A stretch of DNA of 63,633 nt from Brachyspira innocens ATCC 29796 (GTDB lineage Bacteria; Spirochaetota; Brachyspiria; Brachyspirales; Brachyspiraceae), in assembly GCF_000384655.1 (NCBI RefSeq), contig NZ_ARQI01000116.1, forward strand, positions 1 through 63,633, in the 5' to 3' direction. Position numbers and translations under genes: made by a program. How positions within the stretch are numbered: the stretch's first letter is position 1; each line of letters begins with the position of its first letter. Under the pieces are notes generated by a model, which saw only the letters and a list, made by a program, of their open reading frames with translations, ran no database searches and was not told where the DNA came from. Below, piece after piece: positions 30,009 to 30,179 of this stretch.

Positions 30009-30179
30009 ATGTATTATATAACCGCACCGCACCGCACCGCACCGCACCGCACCGCACCGCTATATAGTTTTTTATACTTAATAAAGAAACTATATTCTAA
30101 TTTTTCATTAATTACTTTAATTACTCTGGCTTATTATCTTATAAGCTTTTTTGCTATTGCAAAAATAAGTATAAGTTAA
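30009..30179 (+). CDS. Possible 56-residue membrane peptide built on an (ACCGC)8 repeat
   Basis: ATG 30009 has AAAAGG 6 bases before it and TATAAT at 29980-29985. The ORF reads MYYITAPHRTAPHRTAP through the eight pentanucleotide repeats, then LYSFLYLIKKL and a hydrophobic helix (about residues 33-50, LITLITLAYYLISFF), with TAA at 30177-30179. Changing the repeat number by one gives immediate stops: with 7 repeats TAG follows within three codons, and with 9 a TAA after seven. So only 8 (or 5, 11) repeats give the full peptide, the logic of phase variation. Hydrophobic ORFs arise easily in AT-rich DNA, so the coding claim is tentative. Confidence 0.35.
   Translation: MYYITAPHRTAPHRTAPLYSFLYLIKKLYSNFSLITLITLAYYLISFFAIAKISIS
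30021..30060. repeat. Pentanucleotide repeat (ACCGC)8
   Basis: There are eight perfect tandem copies of ACCGC, a GC-rich island in a very AT-rich gap. Such a simple repeat is prone to slipped-strand changes in length. It lies inside a possible small ORF and 158 bases upstream of a lipoprotein gene. Confidence 0.95.

Follow-up and report, generated by a model that had tools for sequence, protein, structure and literature searches.

A putative phase-variable leader open reading frame with pentanucleotide repeats upstream of a predicted lipoprotein gene in Brachyspira innocens

The pentamers of the Neisseria opa genes are a classical case of phase variation by simple sequence repeats (SSRs) within coding sequence. 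In attenuation of the Escherichia coli pyrBI type, translation of a leader close behind RNA polymerase prevents a terminator hairpin from forming. The tetranucleotide genes of Haemophilus also belong to the classical coding SSR systems (PMC2651432). In Streptococcus gallolyticus, GCAGA repeats in a leader open reading frame (ORF) of pil1 are proven to set the leader stop upstream of a terminator hairpin, or within or past it, and thereby pilus transcription (PMC3894217). Here we describe an (ACCGC)8 array from Brachyspira innocens ATCC 29796, on a stretch of 63,633 nucleotides (nt) of contig NZ_ARQI01000116.1 that is called the window below. We consider it quite likely that the array makes a leader ORF phase-variable and that this leader gates the predicted lipoprotein gene at 30218-30763. 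Array, frames, hairpin and conserved layout are read from the sequence; slippage in living cells, an effect of the hairpin on the lipoprotein and any surface role of that protein are what we infer from them. The parts of the locus are as follows.

29997-30002, forward strand: Shine-Dalgarno (SD) sequence AAAAGG of the leader ORF; the paralog in this genome and relatives have an AAGG-type SD in this position
30009-30179, forward strand: leader ORF of 56 codons with ATG at 30009 and TAA at 30177-30179, open only if the number of repeat units, n, satisfies n mod 3 = 2
30021-30060, forward strand: the proposed switch, a pentanucleotide array (ACCGC)8 of 8 perfect units, with homologous (ATCGC)7-35 arrays at the same position in five relatives
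30128-30152, forward strand: conserved hairpin within the leader ORF, GGCTTAT(TATCTT)ATAAGCT with TTTTT after it, which resembles a terminator but is weak (about -6 kcal/mol)
30148-30165, forward strand: second conserved small hairpin, TTTTTGC(TATT)GCAAAAA
30204-30209, forward strand: SD AAGGAG of the lipoprotein gene
30218-30763, forward strand: ORF of the proposed switched gene, a predicted lipoprotein of 181 amino acids (MIKKLLLMLSVMLLIFSC...) with a lipoprotein-type signal by our own reading of the sequence

The distance is 6 nt from the SD to the leader ATG and 12 nt from the ATG to the array, and the assembled frame yields a product of 56 amino acids, MYYITAPHRTAPHRTAPLYSFLYLIKKLYSNFSLITLITLAYYLISFFAIAKISIS. 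A sequence-only reading of this DNA had placed the array in frame within an ATG-started ORF with an AAAAGG SD, which our coordinates bear out. Its frame arithmetic also holds: one unit fewer (n = 7) brings a TAG 7 nt after the array end and one more (n = 9) a TAA at +21 nt, whereas the n = 8 stop lies at +119 nt, so that only 8 (5, 11) units keep the long product. This stop is 38 nt 5' of the lipoprotein gene start. The array is the sole run of at least three ACCGC units within the 3.28-Mb genome, and three units, with one mismatch allowed, were matched in none of 100 dinucleotide shuffles. It lies 3' of the SD and ATG, that is, outside the promoter, where NadA-type switches change promoter spacing, and outside the lipoprotein gene's own coding sequence, where a coding-region SSR would be expected. 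Those homologous loci that have an evident promoter carry it 5' of the ATG. As in pil1, the pentanucleotide repeats occupy a leader ORF with its own ribosome-binding site and ATG.

The DNA following the array belongs to a family of six loci, made up of the window, a paralog on contig C53 of the same genome and loci in the genus genomes G018, G011 (two) and G004, and a lipoprotein-like ORF follows each array. Copy numbers are 7 on C53, as (ATCGC)7, 31 in G018, 16 and 13 in G011, 35 in G004 and 8 in the window, a comparison of homologous loci of different species with one genome per species. The long frame reads the conserved block in phase 1 at five loci and in phase 0 in the window. The alignment accounts for this change, since a 1-nt deletion with a new TAG shut the old frame in the window and the TAG that closes the other frame of C53 is CTG there. 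The long frame of the window is thus shifted against all five relatives, and the leader peptide is not conserved. By this alignment, what is kept is one open frame through the conserved hairpin to the next gene, and not the peptide.

The first hairpin spans +68 to +87 from the array end. The n = 7 and n = 9 stops fall 61 and 47 nt 5' of it and the n = 8 stop beyond it, so a change of one unit shifts the leader stop from 5' of the hairpin to past it, as at pil1. In RNA form, GGCUUAU(UAUCUU)AUAAGCU-UUUUU is part of an almost invariant block at 6 of 6 family loci, with a U-A pair replaced by U-G in two sequences. A pattern search for the block across 26 genus genomes matched the six repeat-lipoprotein loci only. 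Short frames throughout the family end 5' of the hairpin or at its edge and long frames end beyond it, and no stretch of the leader is better conserved than this block, for all that its reading frame differs in the window.

In the mechanism that we propose, slippage of (ACCGC)n would alter the frame in which ribosomes exit the array. Eight units (or 5, 11 and so on) would take them through the hairpin and U-tract to a stop 38 nt short of the lipoprotein start (ON). Seven or nine units would halt them before the hairpin, which could then fold, and lipoprotein expression would fall (OFF), because transcription terminates early, because translational coupling is lost, or both. On this view the peptide made from the leader is dispensable.

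The leader end was computed in each frame at 31 tabulated loci (the window and 30 others), with gene starts picked by hand. One frame, or two at a few loci, reaches the downstream gene start, and the other frames end earlier, mostly just after the array. Relative to the gene start, the reaching frame ends between about -38 and +25 nt, further at one locus, and between -38 and +7 nt within the lipoprotein family. As assembled, 15 of the 31 loci are in the reaching (ON) register. Tested against dinucleotide shuffles of the sequence after the array, the reach of the open frame has P = 0.03 for the window and 9e-5 by Fisher combination over 11 locus families, statistics that are supportive and not definitive given the manual choice of gene starts. 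The peptides encoded by leaders elsewhere are unrelated. Arrays at start codons, turnover of unit and copy number between orthologous and paralogous loci and the mix of ON and OFF registers strongly support a slipped-strand switch. This part of the sequence-only reading, which had proposed phase variation of a small membrane protein gene, therefore stands on comparison, and the product that it named does not (see below).

Arrays of this type are widespread in Brachyspira, as judged by pattern searches and selected stretches. Of 25 genus genomes, 12 have ACCGC arrays, and a more general pentamer-array pattern matches 23 of 26; a scan for (ACCGC)4 in wider genome contigs matched mainly GC-rich genomes and was mostly uninformative. 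Throughout the genus, pentanucleotide arrays sit immediately behind a start codon that usually has an SD, with units that include ACCGC, ATCGC, AGCAC and CAATA and with 7 to 39 copies. Perfect arrays in a 194-kb sample (the window plus loci not chosen for arrays) were pentamers only. The B. innocens genome itself carries other arrays of ATCGC (C53, C107, C111), AACAC (C35, C71, C100, C109, C126) and AAACC (C89). Its AACAC arrays reach or nearly reach contig ends and several are cut at 95 nt, and long arrays therefore probably break draft assemblies.

A conserved gene for a membrane-bound O-acyltransferase (MBOAT), with an AlgX-like gene behind it, has orthologs that are 85-100% identical. In nearly all genomes that have this gene, it is preceded by a promoter and SD and then by a short leader ORF with a pentamer array after its ATG. 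The unit varies by genome (ACCGC, ATCGC, ACAGC/AGCAC, CAATA or ACAGA), and the array of G012 is a degenerate ACCGA one. In the ON register the leader runs up to the gene start or into it, with its stop mostly at +1 to +19 nt, and the examined leaders, except that of G021, have no hairpin. Most of these leaders being hairpin-free and overlapping the gene start suggests translational coupling there. A remnant MBOAT locus was considered for the window and dropped, as its leader is homologous to the lipoprotein family and not to MBOAT leaders; the gene 3' of it is a lipoprotein-like ORF and not MBOAT, and the genome's own MBOAT relatives are on contig C89.

The array can also lie inside the gene itself, as in a 554-amino-acid ORF in G001 and in G020, whose contig starts within the array. 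In G019 (L332:4205-7363) and G023 (L337), an Eco57I-type restriction-modification gene has an in-frame AGCAC array immediately behind its ATG, a candidate phasevarion in Brachyspira by its sequence. G019 furthermore has CAGAC and ACCAG arrays (L330:5555-5604 and 11603-11642) in two ORFs close to genes for glycan modification, in each case at the 3' end, where they apparently vary the C-terminus or stop. Between array and gene, two AACAC leaders of G019 (L330:4150-4280 and 7695-7860) carry a strong hairpin of the terminator type (AGCCAAAGCAT...ATGCTTTGGCTTTTT), with -17.2 kcal/mol at a G019 locus, and we regard these leaders as the best candidates for true attenuators from their sequence.

On balance, we favor the view that Brachyspira has genus-wide contingency loci with pentanucleotide repeats right after the start codon, arranged in three layouts: an in-gene frameshift, a start-overlapping leader and a leader through a hairpin. 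These would gate lipoproteins, polysaccharide O-acyltransferases, glycosyltransferases and a type IIG restriction-modification enzyme, with a unit that turns over freely while its length of 5, its position and the open-frame rule are kept. We found no relevant paper on repeat-based phase variation in Brachyspira in the open-access papers searched. Typing loci for multilocus variable-number tandem repeat analysis are known in Brachyspira and may include some of these arrays.

Several observations weigh against gating of the lipoprotein through the leader and its hairpin. The hairpin, at about -6 kcal/mol and with two G-C pairs, compares with -13 to -20 kcal/mol for clear gene-end terminators in the window, and a standard terminator scan of the window does not pick it up. 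A -35/-10 pair has 17-nt spacing in G018, G011 and G004; the spacing is compressed in the window (TTGAAT-N8-TATAAT) and in C53, so the window copy may be poorly expressed, and a promoter scan found no forward promoter 5' of the window leader ATG. The lipoprotein's own good SD means that it may be translated regardless of the leader. Finally, with mostly hairpin-free leaders at the MBOAT genes, one mechanism does not explain all loci.

The strongest alternative, to which we give rather less than an even chance, is phase-variable translational coupling or polarity without termination, in which leader translation keeps the lipoprotein start accessible or shields the mRNA and the hairpins are incidental. 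The start-overlapping or abutting, mostly hairpin-free ON leaders of MBOAT favor it, as do the ON stops of the lipoprotein family close to the gene start. The 38 nt between leader and gene in the window are nevertheless a long distance for coupling to work efficiently, the lipoprotein gene has its own strong SD, and the hairpin block is the best conserved part of the leader in spite of the other reading frame in the window. For the window, we place attenuation slightly ahead of coupling.

Two further features frame the cassette.

28950-29570, reverse strand: hisG (Pfam HisG)
30783-30834, forward strand: terminator after the lipoprotein gene, with a hairpin stem of -12.8 kcal/mol

The repeat-lipoprotein cassette sits between hisG and an antiporter. 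Other genes follow hisG in the nine relatives inspected, in most of them an ORF of ~374 amino acids that we read as hisZ, and the cassette is thus not an ancestral part of the his locus. The 181-amino-acid lipoprotein matched no Pfam or NCBIfam family, and its predicted fold was uninformative (predicted local distance difference test, pLDDT, 41). A second alternative is that the locus is a decayed or silent duplicate of a C53-type locus whose array is real but controls no expressed gene now. The position between hisG and an antiporter would fit such a duplicate, as would the compressed promoter of both own-genome copies, the short array (8 units against up to 35 in relatives) and a lipoprotein that only partly resembles those of the relatives (28-38% identity in the longer matches). 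We hold it to be unlikely, given an intact lipoprotein ORF with its terminator, a perfect array and one open frame regained where the C53 stop TAG reads CTG.

That the switched product is a real 56-amino-acid small membrane protein, as first proposed, is improbable. It would account for the SD, the ATG and a hydrophobic stretch in an open frame, but the same conserved DNA is read in another long frame in the own-genome paralog and four relatives, and the peptides of other leaders are unrelated. The hydrophobic helix is weak evidence because 19% of shuffled open frames of the same AT-rich composition equal its hydropathy (P 0.19). That the peptide changed and the frame stayed open points to a leader and speaks against a small protein with a function. 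A type I toxin-like peptide was rejected for the same reasons, the unconserved frame and a hydropathy that AT content explains. A neutral microsatellite or assembly artefact, which a single unit number seen in one draft assembly might suggest, is hardly credible and already contradicted by homologous arrays at homologous positions in independent genomes, consistently just after the start codon and usually with an SD, in a genus where nearly all genomes match the pentamer pattern.

The window holds other repeats as well. A dispersed intergenic repeat at 29658-29795 has ~80-90% identical copies across the B. innocens genome and many in G003 and others, with a further copy at 9477-9581. A 109-bp tandem repeat (2.3 copies at 94%) lies at 63269-63516, near the contig end.

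If the genus-wide reading is true, single cultures of these gut spirochaetes would be mixtures that differ in surface chemistry and lipoproteins, with a bearing on typing, serology and the choice of vaccine antigens. A leader-peptide attenuator known from one streptococcus would have arisen or spread in another phylum and become a general tool there. Turnover of the unit with its length of 5 kept would serve as a natural experiment that shows which properties of contingency loci selection sees.

The Haemophilus and Neisseria opa genes share with these loci the slipped-strand frame shift just after the start codon, directly so in the G001 ORF and the G019/G023 restriction-modification gene; the window array differs in that it lies in a separate upstream leader ORF and not in the target gene. 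As in pyrBI, leader translation would block the hairpin, but control in the window would be by repeat number and heritable, whereas pyrBI depends on polymerase pausing governed by uridine triphosphate (UTP). From pil1/pil3 (PMC3894217), the Brachyspira loci differ in phylum, in units and in having many loci with differing units, and they are described here from sequence. The window hairpin is also weaker (about -6 against -18.7 kcal/mol in pil1), and the MBOAT leaders overlap the gene start, mostly without a hairpin. The likeness lies in pentanucleotide repeats within an SD-ATG leader ORF, with the same parts in the same order in the window. At pil1, a repeat change that shifts the frame carries the leader stop from 5' of the hairpin to its edge, within it or past it, and the window has this geometry, with OFF stops 47-61 nt before the hairpin and the ON stop past it. 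The pil1 target is a surface structure and the proposed target in the window a predicted lipoprotein.
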